A stretch of 64,000 nt of DNA, taken from NCBI RefSeq assembly GCF_024464185.1, contig NZ_JANHAU010000002.1, positions 930,001 through 994,000 on the forward strand. Direction: 5' to 3'. Position numbers and translations under genes: made by a program. The stretch is from Haloarchaeobius salinus (GTDB taxonomy: Archaea > Halobacteriota > Halobacteria > Halobacteriales > Natrialbaceae). How positions within the stretch are numbered: position 1 is the first letter of the stretch; every line of letters begins with the position of its first letter. Shown here piece after piece: positions 55,853-64,000 of the stretch. The notes beneath the pieces are model-generated. The model saw only the letters and a list, made by a program, of their open reading frames with translations. It did not search any database and was not told the origin of the DNA.

Positions 55853-57319
55853 ATGGCTGCTGACATTGCGATTACTGATGCGCTCGTGCTCACGGTCGAT
55901 GAGCGCAACCGGCTGTTCGAGCGGGGCACAGTCCTCATCGAGGACGGTCGCATCACTGCCGTCCGACAGACCGACGAGGACGAGACGGACGGGGAAGCGA
56001 CACACACGATTGACGGCGACGGGAAGGTGGTGATGCCGGGGCTGGTCAACGCCCACACGCATCTCGAACTCACACCCCTGATCGGCGCGTTCAGCGACCT
56101 CGACCTCCTGGAGATGATGGGGAGTATGACCGCCCTCTACGGCCGGATCGGCGAGGGTGAGTTCGACTATCTCGTCGACGCCGGGTACGACCTCGCAGCG
56201 CTAAATTTCCTCCTAGGGGGCGTGACGACGGTCAACTCGATGGATGTCCAGCCCGCGTCGGGGGCTGACACGTTCGGGGAAGCGGGCCTGCGCGGGTTCT
56301 TCGGACCGACAGTGACGGACCTTTTCTGGGATATCCCCATCGACGAGCAGTTCGAGCGTGCCCGCGCGTTCATCGAGGCGTATCACGACACCTACGAGGG
56401 CCGGATTCGGGCGACGATCTGCCCGCACGACGACTGGTCGTGTACCCGCGAGCTCTGGGAGCGAACTGCTGACCTCGCCGCCGAGTATCCCGATCTGCTC
56501 GTCCACACCCACCTGCTCGAACTTGAAGAGGGCAATACGATGGCGCGCGCGAACGACGCCGCCGACTCACTAGGGCTGCTCGAAGACGTCGGCCTCCTGG
56601 ACGACCGCTTGCTCGCCGCGCACTTTCGGGTCGCCGACGCGGATGATATCGAGCGGACGGCGGCTGCGGGGGCGTCAGTCGCGCACTGCCCGTCGGTGTT
56701 CGCGTACTGGAATCCGGACGCCGACATGCAGTGGACGCCAGTCCCCGAGTTACGCGACGCGGGCGTCGATGTCGGGCTCGGGATTGACGACCACTACTGG
56801 CACGACTCCTACAGCATGTTCGGCGAGGCACGCCAAGCCCGTCTTTCTGCCAACGTCAAGCGGACGACCGGCCAGTATTCGTCGATGGAACTCGTGCGAA
56901 TGCTCACTATTGAGGGGGCCCGAGCGCTCGGCATCGGGGACGAGATCGGCAGTATCGAACCCGAAAAGCGCGCGGACTTCATTCTTCTTGACGTGGACAA
57001 GCCGAAGTTCACGCCGCTAACTAACGTTCCCGCACACGTGGTGAACAACGCCGCCCCAGCAGATGTCGAGACGGTGATTGTGGATGGGGAGTTCGTGCTG
57101 CGGGACGGCGTCGTGGAGACGATGGATGCCGAGGCGGTCCAGGAGCGCGTGGAACGCGCCGTGGAACGGTTCGCCGACGAAACCGAGTGGGAGCTGGACG
57201 TCGGTGGCGGATCCCCACCAGGCGGGATCGACACGCTCCGCGACCTGCCCAAGCGCGGGCCCGCACGCCTCCTATCCCGTCTCGCAGTCCAAACGATCCG
57301 TGACCAGTCTCCGTTGTAA
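55853..57319 (+). CDS. Amidohydrolase of the TRZ/ATZ (chlorohydrolase, MTA/SAH deaminase) family
   Basis: 488 residues. Metal ligands are in order: NAHTHLELTP, LLVHTHLLE, LLAAHF and GLGIDDHYWH. This set defines the cytosine-deaminase-like amidohydrolases that deaminate nucleosides, S-adenosylhomocysteine or related ring compounds. Sequence cannot fix the substrate. It is out of place among nucleases; it might be a metabolic passenger or act on nucleotide signals. No partner gene. Confidence 0.85.
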   Translation: MAADIAITDALVLTVDERNRLFERGTVLIEDGRITAVRQTDEDETDGEATHTIDGDGKVVMPGLVNAHTHLELTPLIGAFSDLDLLEMMGSMTALYGRIGEGEFDYLVDAGYDLAALNFLLGGVTTVNSMDVQPASGADTFGEAGLRGFFGPTVTDLFWDIPIDEQFERARAFIEAYHDTYEGRIRATICPHDDWSCTRELWERTADLAAEYPDLLVHTHLLELEEGNTMARANDAADSLGLLEDVGLLDDRLLAAHFRVADADDIERTAAAGASVAHCPSVFAYWNPDADMQWTPVPELRDAGVDVGLGIDDHYWHDSYSMFGEARQARLSANVKRTTGQYSSMELVRMLTIEGARALGIGDEIGSIEPEKRADFILLDVDKPKFTPLTNVPAHVVNNAAPADVETVIVDGEFVLRDGVVETMDAEAVQERVERAVERFADETEWELDVGGGSPPGGIDTLRDLPKRGPARLLSRLAVQTIRDQSPL

Positions 57320-57485: not shown

Positions 57486-58394
57486 ATGGATTCGGATTAC
57501 GCTCGTGGCGTACTTCTCGGTCTCGCGTGTGGGGATGCGCTTGGCCGGCCAGTTGAGTTCTCTTCGGCGGCAGCAATCGAGACTGAGCACGGACGGCTTG
57601 ACGAGATGGTTGGGGACGGGACGTGGAACCAGCCCGCCGGGACGATCACAGACGACACCGAACAAGCGCTGTGCATCGCCCGAAGTCTGGTCGAACACCA
57701 AGCGTTCGAGCCGGCGGATGTCGCTGAGCGGTTCGTCGCGTGGTACGACAGCGGGCCGTTCGATATCGGGCGGATGACGATGCGGTCGCTCAGCCGCCTC
57801 AAACACGGCGACGAATGGGACGAAGCAGGCCAGCACGTCTGGGAGCAGAGCCGCGAAGGCCAGAACGCGGGGAACGGGAGCGTGATGCGGTGTCCACCAC
57901 TCGCCATTCCGTACGCGACTGACTGGGACCGACTCGTTGAGGTAAGTCGCCAGTCTTCGCAGATCACGCACGCTGACCCGCGCTGTACGGCGGGCTGCGC
58001 GATCCTGAACCTCACCGTGGCTGGCCTCCTCGACGATGCGGACACGCCGTTGCAGGACGCGCTTGACTACGTCGGTACAGACGTGCCTGATGAACTCCTG
58101 ACGGCACTTCGACCGCTCGCGCGTGGCGAGTCACCCGACACGCTGGAAACGTCTGGATACGTTGTGCATTCGCTGCAGACGGCACTCCACGATGGCCTCG
58201 TCGCGGACAGTGCCGAGGACGCGATTGTCACGGCCGTGAATCGTGGGGGTGATACGGACACAATTGGCGCGATTGCGGGTGCGGTCGCTGGGGCGCGGTT
58301 CGGCGCGTCACAGCTCCCGGATCGATGGCTGGGTGCTATCGACGAAGTCGACGAACTCGAAGGACTGGCAACCCAGCTTACCAACGTAGGGTAA
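57486..58394 (+). CDS. ADP-ribosylglycohydrolase family protein (DraG-like)
   Basis: 302 residues. Dinuclear metal-site motifs are complete: GLACGDALGRPVEF near the N-terminus, TITDDTEQAL, QNAGNGSVMRCPPLA, and NRGGDTDTIGAIAG near the end. The family removes ADP-ribose from proteins, RNA or DNA. Its neighbour is a Fic/Doc-like protein, which modifies proteins with nucleotides, so a modification/removal pair is conceivable though the chemistry differs. The start ATG 57486 has no clear TATA at 26 bases; a leader is likely. Confidence 0.85.
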   Translation: MDSDYARGVLLGLACGDALGRPVEFSSAAAIETEHGRLDEMVGDGTWNQPAGTITDDTEQALCIARSLVEHQAFEPADVAERFVAWYDSGPFDIGRMTMRSLSRLKHGDEWDEAGQHVWEQSREGQNAGNGSVMRCPPLAIPYATDWDRLVEVSRQSSQITHADPRCTAGCAILNLTVAGLLDDADTPLQDALDYVGTDVPDELLTALRPLARGESPDTLETSGYVVHSLQTALHDGLVADSAEDAIVTAVNRGGDTDTIGAIAGAVAGARFGASQLPDRWLGAIDEVDELEGLATQLTNVG

Positions 58395-58466: not shown

Positions 58467-59315
58467 ATGACTGCCCGTGTCTATTACCATCATCCCGAGG
58501 ATCCTCAGTATTCTCTCGCGTACGTTACTCAGGACAGGGATGAGATAACGACGTCCGGGCAAGATGCAATTATTGAGCAGTACAATCTTGATGAGGAATT
58601 CTTCGTACTGTATACAAATCGCGGGGCGAGCGGTACGGTCGAGGACCTTGATGACGAGTTTGAAGACGTACTCGATGAGATGTCGCCACAGAACCGAACG
58701 ATTACGGTGCGGTTGCTTCAGATCTTCGAGGAGATCATCGAGGAAAAGGAACTGGAGGAGGAAGCGAAGCTCGAAATTTACAAGCAGATCGAATTAGAGC
58801 GGATCCCCGACGCTCTCGCACGCGTGGATTGGACCGGGACCGCCATCGATGTTGCAGGGCAGCTTATGTCTACACTCATTCTGAAACACGCGCTGCCCAA
58901 CGCGAATCACCGGACGTCGATCAGTATGGCTCAATGGTACCTGGAGAGTATTGAAACCGGATTCTCCTTTCCTGACTTTGCGACCGAAGAGTACGACTGG
59001 AAGACGTGGGTCAACGAGTACATTACCGAGTCGAAGCGGCTTCTCACGGTTCGGCGGAATACGACGGCGTTCTCGTTACTCTCTGAGTGGGGGTGTGACA
59101 CTGTTATGCGGAAGAATGGCATCGAGATCGTTCTGGCAGAGTATGACCTCGATTTCACTCGTTCAGAGGCCTACGCGTACTATGGAGACGTGCATACAGA
59201 GCTCTGTACGGACTTCCTTATTGAATCTGTCACCCGTGCTGGACACGACGAGCTCATCACTACCGAGGGTATTGGCAAATCGGAATTCGTCTCGTTCCTC
59301 GATGAGGCAGAATAA
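58467..59315 (+). CDS. Fic/Doc-like protein with degenerate active site
   Basis: 282 residues. H141-ALPNAN-H-R149 followed by TSISM matches the Fic loop HxFx(D/E)xNxR in its H, N and R positions; the acidic metal-binding residue is replaced by N145. Doc-type members have H-x-F-x-D-A-N-K-R-T, close to this. Fic enzymes add AMP or phosphate to target proteins and often act as toxins. The missing acid may lower activity. A TTTTAATT box at 58435-58442 predicts a leaderless transcript from ATG 58467. A tiny minus-strand gene follows. Confidence 0.6.
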   Translation: MTARVYYHHPEDPQYSLAYVTQDRDEITTSGQDAIIEQYNLDEEFFVLYTNRGASGTVEDLDDEFEDVLDEMSPQNRTITVRLLQIFEEIIEEKELEEEAKLEIYKQIELERIPDALARVDWTGTAIDVAGQLMSTLILKHALPNANHRTSISMAQWYLESIETGFSFPDFATEEYDWKTWVNEYITESKRLLTVRRNTTAFSLLSEWGCDTVMRKNGIEIVLAEYDLDFTRSEAYAYYGDVHTELCTDFLIESVTRAGHDELITTEGIGKSEFVSFLDEAE

Positions 59316-59682: not shown

Positions 59683-61146
59683 TCAGTAGTCGGGGTTAGG
59701 GTACCTGTTCAGAGTGGCTTCGTCGTCCCCGATCCAATCAGAGTCGGTGATATTGGAGTATCGTTTCCGAACCATCTCTGGTAGGACTACGATGAGATTC
59801 TCACACTCTTTGTACCGATTAATGTAGGCTTCTTTGTCAGAGGTGTTGGGGTCTACCCTGGTTGTCCATCGGACCTCGTCTTCGACGGAATGCTGGAACT
59901 TTCCCGAGTGGAAGAACGGTCGGAACACTTCATGCATCCCGTCCGTTGCGAGGTTGAGTTCGTTTGTCTGCAGCGGACTTTGCGCGATTTGAACCATCTG
60001 TGAGAGCGCGCTGGCGTAGAGAATTACCATAGTACCGTCCACTCCCGCATTCCTGTACTCCTCTTGGATGAGGTGGTACCAGTCTATCTCGTTCGCATCC
60101 AACCCATCCATATCGAACACGACAAACACGTGGGCGACGTGCGAGTTCTCGAACCGGTCTGCGGTTGTCTGCCAGATATAGTCTCGGTGCTTGTCGGCGA
60201 TTTTCTCCTCGCTGAGATTCTTCTCACCGTTGGACTTCGTGTCTACGATGCCCAGGATCTCCTCGCCGTGCCTCTTGTTGTTCGACGGAAATTTAAACGC
60301 CAGATCTGCAACGTTCTTTCCAGACTCTCCGAGAGGTTTTGTGGAGATGTTCAGACTCATCAAGGCGGCGTGGCACACGCGCTCGAAGTAATCTCCGAGA
60401 GTGGTGGGGGAGAGTGAGGCCTCTCGACGCACGCGTGAGTAGGCCAACTCCGTCCGAATCGCCCCAGGATTATTCTCGATAGTTGCGGCCAACTCCTCGT
60501 CTTGGAGGTCACTTTGGGTGATGGTTTCGTCGCTCTGGTCGCGCTGACCCACCGCGTTCTCGATAACCTCCACAACTGCACTCGGTTCGTCCAACATACG
60601 AATCGAGAACGCAGGTACGAAGCTGGCTACTGGGTACTCAGCCGCCAGCTCATAAATGTTCTCCAGAGTGGACTTCGGCGCAACGATGGCGTTGACGTGG
60701 GAGTTCCGCACAGCATCAGCGAACAACTTCTCAACCGACTCCTCTAGTCTGTCTGTGTTGCACACCAGATTCAGTCGTAGTGAGTCCCCGAGGTGCGCCC
60801 GCGCGTACAGAGGCATCGGACGCGTGTCTACGTCGTCTTCCGTCACCTCGTGACCGAGACGGTTGCTGAACAGTTCGAATACGGAATTGAGGTCTAGTTT
60901 GTGGTGTGCCGCCTCCTGGTGCGGGATTTTCCCACACTCTCCCTGGCACGACGCGACCTTCTCTCCATCAATCTCTACTGGGCCTAAGATATCCGCTCCG
61001 CAGTTGGGGCACTTGTCAACAGTTTCGACCGTTTTGAAAAGGGAGTCGTCTAACGATTCAAGTTCCTCTGGTATCGTAGATGCGAATATCCCGTTACAGT
61101 CATCGATGAACTTTGATAGGGCCTTCAGTTGATCTTCACTCGGCAT
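59683..61146 (-). CDS. Restriction endonuclease-like protein with zinc knuckles
   Basis: 487 residues from ATG 61146, which overlaps the upstream gene by 11 bases. KCPNCGADI and CQGECGKIPHQEAAHH provide a zinc site near residues 45-80. VADLAFKF followed by ILGIVDTKSNGEKN provides D...DxK of a PD-(D/E)XK nuclease near 275-310. The layout (zinc region, helical region, nuclease, C-terminal YINRYKECENLIVVLPEMVR) is like restriction endonucleases of type II or IV. No methyltransferase is nearby, so an enzyme acting without a dedicated modification partner, or dependent on the next gene, is more likely. Confidence 0.65.
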   Translation of the reverse strand: MPSEDQLKALSKFIDDCNGIFASTIPEELESLDDSLFKTVETVDKCPNCGADILGPVEIDGEKVASCQGECGKIPHQEAAHHKLDLNSVFELFSNRLGHEVTEDDVDTRPMPLYARAHLGDSLRLNLVCNTDRLEESVEKLFADAVRNSHVNAIVAPKSTLENIYELAAEYPVASFVPAFSIRMLDEPSAVVEVIENAVGQRDQSDETITQSDLQDEELAATIENNPGAIRTELAYSRVRREASLSPTTLGDYFERVCHAALMSLNISTKPLGESGKNVADLAFKFPSNNKRHGEEILGIVDTKSNGEKNLSEEKIADKHRDYIWQTTADRFENSHVAHVFVVFDMDGLDANEIDWYHLIQEEYRNAGVDGTMVILYASALSQMVQIAQSPLQTNELNLATDGMHEVFRPFFHSGKFQHSVEDEVRWTTRVDPNTSDKEAYINRYKECENLIVVLPEMVRKRYSNITDSDWIGDDEATLNRYPNPDY

Positions 61147-62473
61147 CCTCACCACCTTTGAAGACCGCACTTAGGAGGTTCCGTGCCTGTTCACCCACCT
61201 GCTTCTCTTCGGTCCAGAATTTGCTCCGAACGATGAACGTCTCGTTGTTTCCGTCGCCGAAATCGCTTCGAAACCGTAGCCCAATGTTCCCTTTCTCTGC
61301 CTCGCTGAGAATGTGGAACAGATTCTCACCGGCACCGGGCGTGTTCTTCACGAAATTGACGAGGTTCGTGGCCGCCGTGAAGTCGTCGGAGGCAATCATC
61401 GTGTCCTCGTCATTATCCACGACCCATCCAACCCATTGGACGTTCCCCTCGGAAATGGCGGGAGCGTCGTCGGGGAGAGAGTCCCCCGCTAGATCCTCCA
61501 TCGTCTCCGTGACCGCATCTTCAACCTCTTCGACCTCCTCGGCTGAGATGTCTTTCTCGTTGCCCTGGGCGGTGGAGACGGCCGCGTCGAGGACCTCGGA
61601 CGCGCCATCGTCCACCTCCTGGTTGGTTTCGTCGAAGGGGTCCTCAATGCCTGCGACGGCCTCGAAGAATCGCTCCATTTCCCCATTCCAGCTGCTCTGT
61701 GGATCGGTCTTAAATACAAATTTGACCTCATCGTCGGCTGAGGTGTCTACCCGGCAGAGGAGAGTCTTGATGGTGTACCCCGATTCGTGCGTGACTGTCG
61801 GGTTATCACTCGGTGCCACTTCGTCCTTCTTCCTCTGCTTGAAGATATTTTGCATCACCCGTGCCGTCTCCTTGTAGAAGTCAAGGAAGATGGTGTCGTC
61901 GGTCTCATGGTACCGAATCGTGAAGGGACGGTAGAGTTCGTCGTTCCGGCGTCGCACGTGCCTCCTCACCGCCGCCTCAAAGTTCTCCAGGTCGAAGCGG
62001 TCTCGGTCGTATTTGTACGTTCGCTCCGTGGTTTCCTTGAAGAGGCGTGAGTCGAGTATCAAGAACTCCAGCTTCGCGGAGAAGTCGTCCTCGTCATATA
62101 ACTCGTGATACGCAAACACCAACAGTTGACGCGTCGTCGGCTCTAGTTCGTCGACCAAGTCTCCCGGAACACCCTCTGAGACGAGATTCTCCTCGAACTT
62201 GTTCTTCTTCACGGTGAGGTTATCCAAGTCGTAGAGCAGGTCTTCAACCTCATCTGGGTACTCTCGAACCAGTGCCTCCGCCAGTTCGCGCCGATTCCCC
62301 GCCGTTGTCTCGTTATCACCGTAATACCACGCTATCTTCTTAGTCTGGCTCTTGAAGATGTGCTTCAGGTGGAGGAGTTCCCCTTTGGTGAAATTCTGGT
62401 CCAATACAGACTGGAGAACCTCCTTTTCTTCTGGGGACAGAGTTCTCTGGGGGGTGACCCCGTAGTCAGTCAT
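61136..62473 (-). CDS. Unknown partner of the restriction-like gene
   Basis: 445 residues from ATG 62473 (an adjacent GTG at 62476 would add one). Mostly helical; the middle is very acidic (NEKDISAEEVEEVEDAV). The N-terminal half has DLVDELEPTTRQLLVFAYHE and RHVRRRNDELYRPF, the end GLRFRSDFG and FWTEEKQVGEQARN. No catalytic motif or domain is recognised. Its stop overlaps the nuclease start, so the two form a coupled pair and probably a two-protein defence unit. The 87-codon plus-strand frame upstream is not a gene. Confidence 0.6.
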   Translation of the reverse strand: MTDYGVTPQRTLSPEEKEVLQSVLDQNFTKGELLHLKHIFKSQTKKIAWYYGDNETTAGNRRELAEALVREYPDEVEDLLYDLDNLTVKKNKFEENLVSEGVPGDLVDELEPTTRQLLVFAYHELYDEDDFSAKLEFLILDSRLFKETTERTYKYDRDRFDLENFEAAVRRHVRRRNDELYRPFTIRYHETDDTIFLDFYKETARVMQNIFKQRKKDEVAPSDNPTVTHESGYTIKTLLCRVDTSADDEVKFVFKTDPQSSWNGEMERFFEAVAGIEDPFDETNQEVDDGASEVLDAAVSTAQGNEKDISAEEVEEVEDAVTETMEDLAGDSLPDDAPAISEGNVQWVGWVVDNDEDTMIASDDFTAATNLVNFVKNTPGAGENLFHILSEAEKGNIGLRFRSDFGDGNNETFIVRSKFWTEEKQVGEQARNLLSAVFKGGEDAE

Positions 62474-62793
62474 CACCCATAGTCCTCAACAATATAGGAT
62501 AAGCGTTTTGCCAAGTGACATATTCGTTGGCCTAACGGGGCATTCCGACATCTACGAGTCCAAATGGTACGACCTGCCTCAGTTCGTACCGTCTGAGAGA
62601 ATGAGGTTTTTCGGAGGCTTTGGCCGACTGGAGCGCCACGGAGAGAAACCTGGTCAGAAGAGGTTCGGAGTCCTTCCCCCACGAATTCGGCCGCAAATCA
62701 ACCCTATGCTCGGAACTACTGTTTTTCTCAAACTATATCTCAAGACTACATTTATCACAGACACGGTTTAGAGTCTATGTACGCTGAGCGGCT
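62474..62793. other. 320-base divergent promoter region with an inverted repeat
   Basis: Contains GGTACGA (62566-62572) and TCGTACC (62584-62590), exact reverse complements 11 bases apart. A CTTATCCTATATTG stretch (minus strand, about 62487-62500) may be the TATA region for the left operon and ACATTTATC (about 62750-62758) that for the AbiEi-like gene. Open frames inside have poor composition. Confidence 0.4.
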
Positions 62794-63627
62794 ATGGGAT
62801 TAACAAACGGCGAGGAGACTCAACGAAAGGGCCTGTCGACACGGGAGTCGCAAGCACTGTCACGGCTTGCAAGTGAGAACCGGCAGGTCATCACCATTAG
62901 TGACATCGCGGACGTCCTCGACATCCGGCGGAAGTCGGCCAAGGACATGGCGTATGCGCTCAAGGAGAAGGGCTGGTTGGAGCGGATCGCGCATGGGAAG
63001 TATCTCATCCTGCCACTTGCTGCAGGCGAGAACGCCGTGTATACAGCGCACGAGTTCGTGATCGCGTCTGCTCTGGTGGAGCCGATGTACGTTGGGTACT
63101 GGAGTGCGCTGAACCATCACGGACTGACGGAGCAGGTGCCCCGAACGGTGTACATCGTGACGACAGAACGCGCTCAAGAACGCGAGATCCACGGGGTTAC
63201 CTATCGACCGGTGACAGTTACTGAGCAGAAGTTCTTCGGCTATCAACCGACAGCAGTCGGGTCGAGTCAGGCGAACATTTCGAGTATCGAGAAGACGCTG
63301 GTCGATTGCGCCGACCACCCCGAGTTCTGCGGCGGTATCAGCGAGCTTGCGAAGGCACTGCAGAGCGCTGTCGACACGCAATGTTCGTGGGACCGAGTCG
63401 TCGGGTGTCTGCGCCGAGTCGGGAATGGAGCCGCAACGAAACGGATCGTCTACCTCGCCGACCAGTTGAACATTACCCTGCCAGAGTACGAGGACCTTGT
63501 CGAGAACTTCACGACTGGATACCCACTGCTTGACCCGACGCGAGAATCGAGGGGTACCCGGGACAGTAAGTACCAACTTCGTCTGAACATCGACCCTGAA
63601 TCGTTCCTCCCGCATGATTTCTCATAA
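62794..63627 (+). CDS. AbiEi-type transcriptional regulator / antitoxin
   Basis: 277 residues. The winged helix (VITISDIADVLDIRRKSAKD then LKEKGWLERIAHGKYLILP) followed by VEPMYVGYWSALNHHGLTEQ and TVYIVTTERAQ is the pattern of AbiEi antitoxins of type IV toxin-antitoxin pairs. SSIEKTLVDCADHPEFCGG is the family signature near residue 170. The nucleotidyltransferase toxin AbiEii normally lies directly downstream; here the next gene is an HNH gene on the other strand, so the antitoxin is orphaned or acts as a regulator. Confidence 0.8.
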   Translation: MGLTNGEETQRKGLSTRESQALSRLASENRQVITISDIADVLDIRRKSAKDMAYALKEKGWLERIAHGKYLILPLAAGENAVYTAHEFVIASALVEPMYVGYWSALNHHGLTEQVPRTVYIVTTERAQEREIHGVTYRPVTVTEQKFFGYQPTAVGSSQANISSIEKTLVDCADHPEFCGGISELAKALQSAVDTQCSWDRVVGCLRRVGNGAATKRIVYLADQLNITLPEYEDLVENFTTGYPLLDPTRESRGTRDSKYQLRLNIDPESFLPHDFS

Positions 63628-63660: not shown

Positions 63661-64000
63661 CTATAACCACGAGAGACCAGTATTGAGTTCCTCTAGAAAC
63701 GACGGTTGGACTTGTGCGCCGGGTGGGAATGCGAGTTGTTCGCCGTCCCGGCTGAGAATGGTTTCGCGGAGGAACGGGTGCGCTGGATCGAATGACGGGC
63801 TGGTACGGATCCGGTAGTCGCTATCGATGGTGAACAGCGCAGCGTCGAACGCGCGGTGGTGCAGTGAGTTCAACACGAAGACGTTCTCTGGGTGTTCTGC
63901 GAGATCGGGATGTTGACTCCGTGGGAGGATGTGCGCGAGATCCAGCAACTCGTCTTCTCGAATGCCAGTCAGGGTGCACGCGTGGTCGTAGCGGTCGAGT
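63661..64000 (-). CDS. HNH endonuclease, N-terminus outside the window
   Basis: The minus-strand frame is open to the right edge. Visible residues include CTLTGIREDELLDLAHILPR, HPENVFVLNSLHHRAF and ALFTIDSDY. DxAHI...N...LHHRAFD is the HNH core in the layout of restriction-type HNH proteins (HNH_2-like: LxxAHIxP, NGLxLxxxxHxxFD). It ends with EELNTGLSWL. The missing N-terminal part prevents naming a specific family. The opposite strand carries no natural frame. Confidence 0.75.
   Translation of the reverse strand, partial: LDRYDHACTLTGIREDELLDLAHILPRSQHPDLAEHPENVFVLNSLHHRAFDAALFTIDSDYRIRTSPSFDPAHPFLRETILSRDGEQLAFPPGAQVQPSFLEELNTGLSWL

Follow-up and report, generated by a model that had tools for sequence, protein, structure and literature searches.

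An uncatalogued two-gene module of haloarchaea that joins a predicted FokI-type nuclease to a putative TBP-lobe protein

On the minus strand of the window (the whole 64,000-nt stretch of Haloarchaeobius salinus DNA that was analysed) lie two overlapping genes that we designated A (61136..62473) and B (59683..61146). Gene A encodes 445 residues from an ATG at 62473, or 446 residues from a GTG at 62476, and gene B encodes 487 residues from an ATG at 61146. There are GTG starts further upstream for B (61152, 61155 and 61170, converted from L005 positions), and we preferred the ATG because it agreed with the homologues. The two genes share 11 bases (61136..61146, minus strand), which hold the end of A including its stop codon and the start of B. 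A preliminary description of this DNA had given the coordinates, the sizes and the 11-base overlap of a 445-residue gene with a nuclease gene correctly, with the minus strand left out. It had also called A acidic, which is accurate (99 D/E residues against 49 K/R), and such a composition is ordinary for a haloarchaeal protein.

By its predicted fold, B combines a zinc ribbon with a PD-(D/E)XK domain of the FokI/BspD6I type: the ribbon (residues 46-75; 60922..61011, minus strand) and an alpha/beta middle domain are followed by the nuclease domain (residues 222-470; 59737..60483, minus strand). The four residues of the PD-(D/E)XK core, E255 (60382-60384), D281 (60304-60306), D302 (60241-60243) and K304 (60235-60237, all minus strand), were present in 18 of 18 members, again in 21 of 21, and in the matching columns of two divergent B proteins described below. 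The ribbon cysteines C46, C49 and C67 were invariant to the same extent (18/18 and 21/21), as were S305, E314, K319, Y323 and H339, while the fourth Cys/His position of the ribbon shifts between members. The earlier identification of B, from the letters, as a "zinc/PD-(D/E)XK" protein was thus upheld by the three cysteines and four active-site residues found in every one of the 18 members. The active site is conserved, and B presumably cuts DNA.

The predicted structure of B (mean pLDDT 75.7, pTM 0.77) matched FokI with a Z of 11.9 at 3.4 Å over 177 residues, placing B 187-459 on FokI 387-579, and it matched both subunits of BspD6I (large subunit Nt.BspD6I, Z 10.5; small subunit R.BspD6I2, Z 8.5), the next row being at 7.1; Foldseek alone returned BspD6I at an E-value of 6e-3. 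When B was aligned with FokI by hhalign the match was not significant (P 0.065), with PD aligned to PD and VDTK to VDTK. A profile of the B nuclease domain found no FokI match among PDB sequences at E-values up to 10, and when the profiles of A, of B and of the nuclease domain were run against PDB sequences, all matches were chance ones. Since these sequence searches were uninformative, we base the link to FokI on structure and motif register. The Pfam model for the FokI-type cleavage domain, PF09254, did not match the window genome at E-values up to 0.1, but the control genomes were silent too, and hmmscan of the 18 members gave no match to it. The likeness to FokI covers the predicted fold, including helices before the core, and the same register of PD and VDTK; in contrast to FokI, B has no detected FokI-type recognition domain and carries the zinc ribbon and alpha/beta domain instead, it has a separate partner in A and no cognate methyltransferase, and there is no significant sequence similarity. 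BspD6I consists of two subunits and cuts with a domain of the FokI type, as we propose for A and B, but the nuclease fold is present in both of its subunits, whereas A has another predicted fold, and the zinc ribbon of B is unmatched in BspD6I. For the N-terminal part of B (zinc ribbon plus alpha/beta domain) the structure searches gave no confident match; the Zn_ribbon_TFIIB model scored below its cut-off (E 0.58) and merely hints at a zinc ribbon. A receiver-like fold was considered for the middle domain (about residues 85-212) and dropped, the Z values of 4-5.6 being too weak to name it.

The preliminary description had seen no recognised domain in A, and here the structure search changed the picture, for the predicted fold of A resembles TBP-lobe proteins. 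The best model of A (mean pLDDT 75.5, pTM 0.62; the other four of the five models were at 63-68) runs from a helical N-terminal region through a central domain (residues 142-288 in the numbering from the GTG; 61613..62053, minus strand) to a second alpha/beta domain (residues 345-439; 61160..61444, minus strand), the last delimited from the secondary structure of the model and without a settled fold. The top structural matches of A were CENP-N (Z 8.2, 3.6 Å, 109 residues), Chl4 and Iml3, at Z values of 6.9-8.2, and the next were KA1 domains (Z 6.8), RnlA and RdgC. With moderate confidence, A is predicted to carry a TBP-lobe domain of the CENP-N/RnlA/KA1 kind, although the Z values of 5-8 to CENP-N, KA1 and RnlA fall in a range that the tool flags for common arrangements. 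According to a passage in PMC7221094, TBP lobes, RnlA included, bind double-stranded nucleic acid, and CENP-N is described in part of PMC5777823 as holding DNA through its pyrin and CLN-HD domains. Because the Z values are modest, we take "TBP-lobe nucleic-acid binder" as the best reading of A, short of a demonstration, and binding by the central domain is to be understood as probable.

The likeness of A to the TBP-lobe group as a whole (TBP, RNase HIII, KA1, RnlA) lies in the central domain. RnlA (Z 6.4, 3.5 Å, 83 residues) and the KA1 domains matched A residues 152-277, but a HEPN RNase domain was not found in A, whose partner is instead the PD-(D/E)XK protein B. The kinetochore proteins CENP-N/Chl4 and CENP-L/Iml3 have a helical domain and then a TBP-like (CLN-HD) domain, the same order as in A; unlike them, A is partnered by a nuclease gene, no sequence similarity to them was detected, and superposing both domains gave an rmsd near 8 Å. 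RdgC gave a long and weak match (A 143-444, Z 6.3, 221 residues) with an rmsd of 7.8 Å and no sequence similarity, and to our knowledge its gene has no nuclease gene as a partner. Among viral predicted structures a phage RdgC came second in a search with A (E 7e-3), which fits the weak PDB match to RdgC and is not decisive.

That A and B belong together is apparent from their distribution. A class-wide scan found B in 18 of 391 haloarchaeal genomes; a single-sequence search with A found it in 10 genomes of the same sample, every one of them with B, and the A profile had strong matches (368 to 541 bits) in exactly the 18 B-bearing genomes. A lies immediately upstream of B on the same strand in 17 of these 18 genomes (the A copy at L033 being truncated by the start of its contig). 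In the eighteenth, G356, the two genes are on different contigs, A stopping 5 bases short of the end of one and B starting 64 bases from the end of a second, short one. At 16 of the 17 loci the two genes overlap, the shared stretch being 4, 8, 11 or 20 bases long, and at the remaining one they are separated by 2 bases; these lengths depend on the start codons that we chose. Since the arrangement is kept across homologous loci, a chance explanation of the overlap can be excluded. Five extra pairs, again with A immediately ahead of B, came from annotated entries (Halorubrum laminariae, Haladaptatus sp. DYSN1, Haloterrigena salifodinae pHTS96, Haloferax gibbonsii pHG3 and Halomarina sp. BND7), of which the pHTS96 B is 90% identical to the B of a locus already counted. 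Pairwise distances among A proteins followed those among B proteins closely (Mantel r 0.95 for 21 pairs, the cut locus L033 being left out), and none of 10,000 permutations reached as high, the maximum being 0.50. A and B are therefore an evolutionary unit, a true two-gene module.

Two weak matches to the A profile beyond the 18 genomes, in G369 and G022 (E-values of 7.8e-5 and 7.4e-4), led to a divergent branch. Each has a 455-residue B relative downstream of A with a 4-base overlap; these score at about 1e-25 against the B profile and are ~18% identical to the window B, and their aligned rows all retain the E, the D, the DxK and two zinc-ribbon cysteines. A third divergent pair is on a plasmid of Halorussus salilacus. 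That the pairs are retained in this branch indicates that pairing outlasts deep divergence. In G022 (L089, G022:C7) a 1,505-bp insertion element interrupts A after codon 121. The element has inverted ends that match, an 8-base target repeat and a 273-residue frame, and the B frame beside the split A is intact; by eye, the 273-residue frame resembles an IS5-type transposase. On plasmid pHTS138 (L062 8962-9915) A is absent and the B is a truncated remnant, with the C-terminal, nuclease part left (profile positions 201-482). Finding either gene frequently alone had been named at the outset as an observation that would count against a coupled pair; the co-occurrence did not show this, the truncated pHTS138 B without A and the one IS-split A being the only departures. 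The genes adjoining the pHTS138 remnant are annotated as a Pycsar effector and a nucleotide cyclase.

The pair has so far been found in haloarchaea only. B was present in 6 of 392 genomes of a phylum sample, all from the order of the window, and a scan of GTDB contigs, for which 11 of the 18 B rows served as query, gave 7 loci, all haloarchaeal. There were no relatives of B in 50,697 phage records, and none in IMG/VR by pattern scans with strict patterns. Eight plasmid records carry B, with A adjacent in seven of them, the eighth being pHTS138; the pair also sits on contigs some 3 Mb long (G278, G071, G150, G115, G100 and G015). Within the genus of the window one of six genomes, the window genome itself, has the pair, and the genes flanking it had no long DNA match elsewhere in the genus, which left no way to define an empty site. 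The restriction to one genome and the unmatched flanks together point to a patchy, mobile gene set.

No model in Pfam, PADLOC, NCBIfam or PHROGs covers A or B, and PADLOC-DB 2.0.0 returned no family for either protein at E-values up to 1, so the possibility raised earlier that the genes might match a known defence pair found no support among its models. The open-licence PMC papers that we searched contained no description of the pair. We conclude that A and B form a new two-protein family, absent from the catalogues, whose nuclease is of the FokI type. The earlier suggestion of an undescribed two-gene system therefore stands as far as a real unit absent from four family libraries is concerned, whereas the defensive role that went with it is still inferred.

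Divergent from A and upstream of it, the window holds an AbiEi-type antitoxin/regulator gene (62794-63627, plus strand; PADLOC E-value 2.7e-94) with no nucleotidyltransferase partner recognised just after it; a regulator and nucleotidyltransferase pair does lie near A and B on pHG3. On the other side of the pair a gene at 58467-59315 (plus strand) encodes a 282-residue protein with a weak Doc/Fic-like core that includes the stretch HALPNANHRTS, its score against NCBIfam TIGR01550 being below the cut-off (E 1.6e-4). At other loci nearby helicases match DISARM, BREX and Hachiman models. The 111 neighbours, all of which were tested, matched 286 PADLOC families against 155 for same-contig control proteins, of which 107 of 131 were used and 24 left out, and the controls also contain BREX and DISARM genes; the case for defence genes being concentrated near the pair is only suggestive.

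The preliminary description had also noted that no methyltransferase was present. By the motif [DNS]PP[YFW], which we take to be a DNA methyltransferase motif, this was borne out for the four neighbours called to the left and the four to the right of A and B in the window, and no conserved methyltransferase partner emerged across loci: the motif was found among neighbours at 3 of 17 loci and at 1 of 17 control loci, cytosine-C5 methyltransferases falling outside this test. The Type II/IIS arrangement, with a cognate methyltransferase beside or fused to the nuclease, was not found by this motif among the neighbours. Across 63 genomes we found no dependence of the pair on either of two methyltransferase families, PF02086 (11/18 pair genomes, 16/45 others) or PF01555 (17/18 and 44/45). 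PF02086 is absent from the window genome and PF01555 from the pair genome G134, so the pair is not reliant on either family throughout.

We tentatively favour, while holding it short of probable, the reading that the pair belongs to the mobile gene pool of haloarchaea and makes a DNA-cutting module of two proteins, with A for recognition or licensing and B as the cutter, most likely directed against viruses or competing plasmids; defence is plausibly the most likely role. A and B would be made together through their overlapping frames, and A would bind nucleic acid and form a complex with B. A would then select foreign DNA and position B, or license it, to cut there. A FokI cleavage domain is a poor cutter when it is a single monomer, and B would accordingly be expected to stay inactive until it is assembled on DNA; as FokI-type domains must meet on DNA to cut well, licensing by A would alone keep B idle. 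Self-protection would come from the DNA state chosen by A (invading, replicating, modified or otherwise distinct) and not from a cognate methyltransferase. A more speculative and rather unlikely version is that A is a CENP-N-like DNA clamp, made of the helical domain and the TBP lobe, which would read the state of DNA, e.g., host chromatin versus a naked invader, and license the FokI-type nuclease in an uncatalogued form of haloarchaeal immunity. Were it true, restriction would here follow a self/non-self rule that is not base methylation, and the fold employed would be one that the eukaryotic kinetochore uses as well.

Other ways of sparing the host would involve base modification after all. 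Haloviruses with modified DNA exist, and the pair could be a type IV-like system in which a modified base of viral DNA is recognised either by A or by the ribbon in B, with B cutting beside it and unmodified host DNA left safe. This would accord with the want of a conserved cognate methyltransferase and with the account, in one passage of PMC6471742, of Type IV systems as restriction enzymes alone, without a methyltransferase, that cut methylated sites. However, we recognised no known modified-base-reading domain in A or B, and the coexistence of PF01555 methyltransferases with the pair in 17 of 18 genomes means that the mark read must differ from PF01555 marks; we consider such a system unlikely, if the least so of the rival readings. 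Alternatively, protection might be borrowed from a resident orphan methyltransferase of the CTAG or GATC type, which would mark the chromosome and leave unmarked DNA to be cut by A and B. Conserved orphan methyltransferases occur widely among Halobacteria, as stated in a portion of PMC6471742, and PF01555 occurs in 61 of the 63 genomes searched, but neither family is shared by every pair genome (PF02086 is in 11 and PF01555 in 17 of 18). We rate this the most improbable of the explanations that we weighed.

Two further explanations do without restriction of foreign DNA by a targeting subunit. B might be toxic to host DNA and A might restrain it until a virus disturbs A, as in a toxin-antitoxin or abortive infection module; the overlapping genes with the smaller-risk gene first, their presence on plasmids and the genes of similar type adjoining the window pair would all agree with this. 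Against it, the IS-split A beside an intact B frame in G022 weakens an antitoxin reading of A, unless the insertion silences B, and such polar silencing is possible; the nuclease-only remnant on pHTS138 survives without A, and both proteins are oversized, toxin-antitoxin modules usually having smaller proteins than A and B. We regard this explanation as improbable, and about equally so plasmid housekeeping, such as the resolving or nicking of replication or transfer intermediates, in place of defence. The pair is often on plasmids, once beside primase and VirB4-type genes, and BspD6I, which has the FokI fold, is a nicking enzyme according to part of PMC8533099. Yet the pair is rare and patchy (18/391 genomes) and also occurs on the ~3 Mb contigs, and no replication gene consistently accompanies it. 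The DNA-cutting module with A as its recognition or licensing subunit is the reading that we tentatively keep.

If the pair restricts DNA, the means by which it spares its host without a methyltransferase could be studied directly, with only two genes to place in a tractable haloarchaeon. Cutting domains of the FokI type serve widely as engineering modules, and a natural FokI-type cutter whose probable targeting subunit is a protein apart would be both useful and new. A survey of 7,747 archaeal genomes (PMC12988326) remarks in one passage that archaeal defences are under-described since detection tools use bacterial profiles, and the pair fits the gap named there, with no family models, strict co-occurrence of strong matches in the sampled class and an intact active site.

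Several genes farther out in the flanks of the window pair were also seen. Next after the AbiEi-type gene, from 63661 to the window end at 64000 and on past it (L005:8662-9705, minus strand), a gene encodes a 347-residue protein with a long N-terminal domain and, by eye, an HNH-like C-terminal end, possibly a modification-dependent nuclease. Also past the window end (L005:11445-11915, minus strand), a 156-residue protein has a marginal match to the CRISPR-associated Cas_NE0113 (E 4e-5). On the opposite side, an ADP-ribosylglycohydrolase gene (57486-58394) adjoins the Doc/Fic-like gene, and an amidohydrolase-like gene (55853-57319, plus strand) has a second copy on another contig of the genome (G000:C5:117185-118627) with 74% DNA identity.
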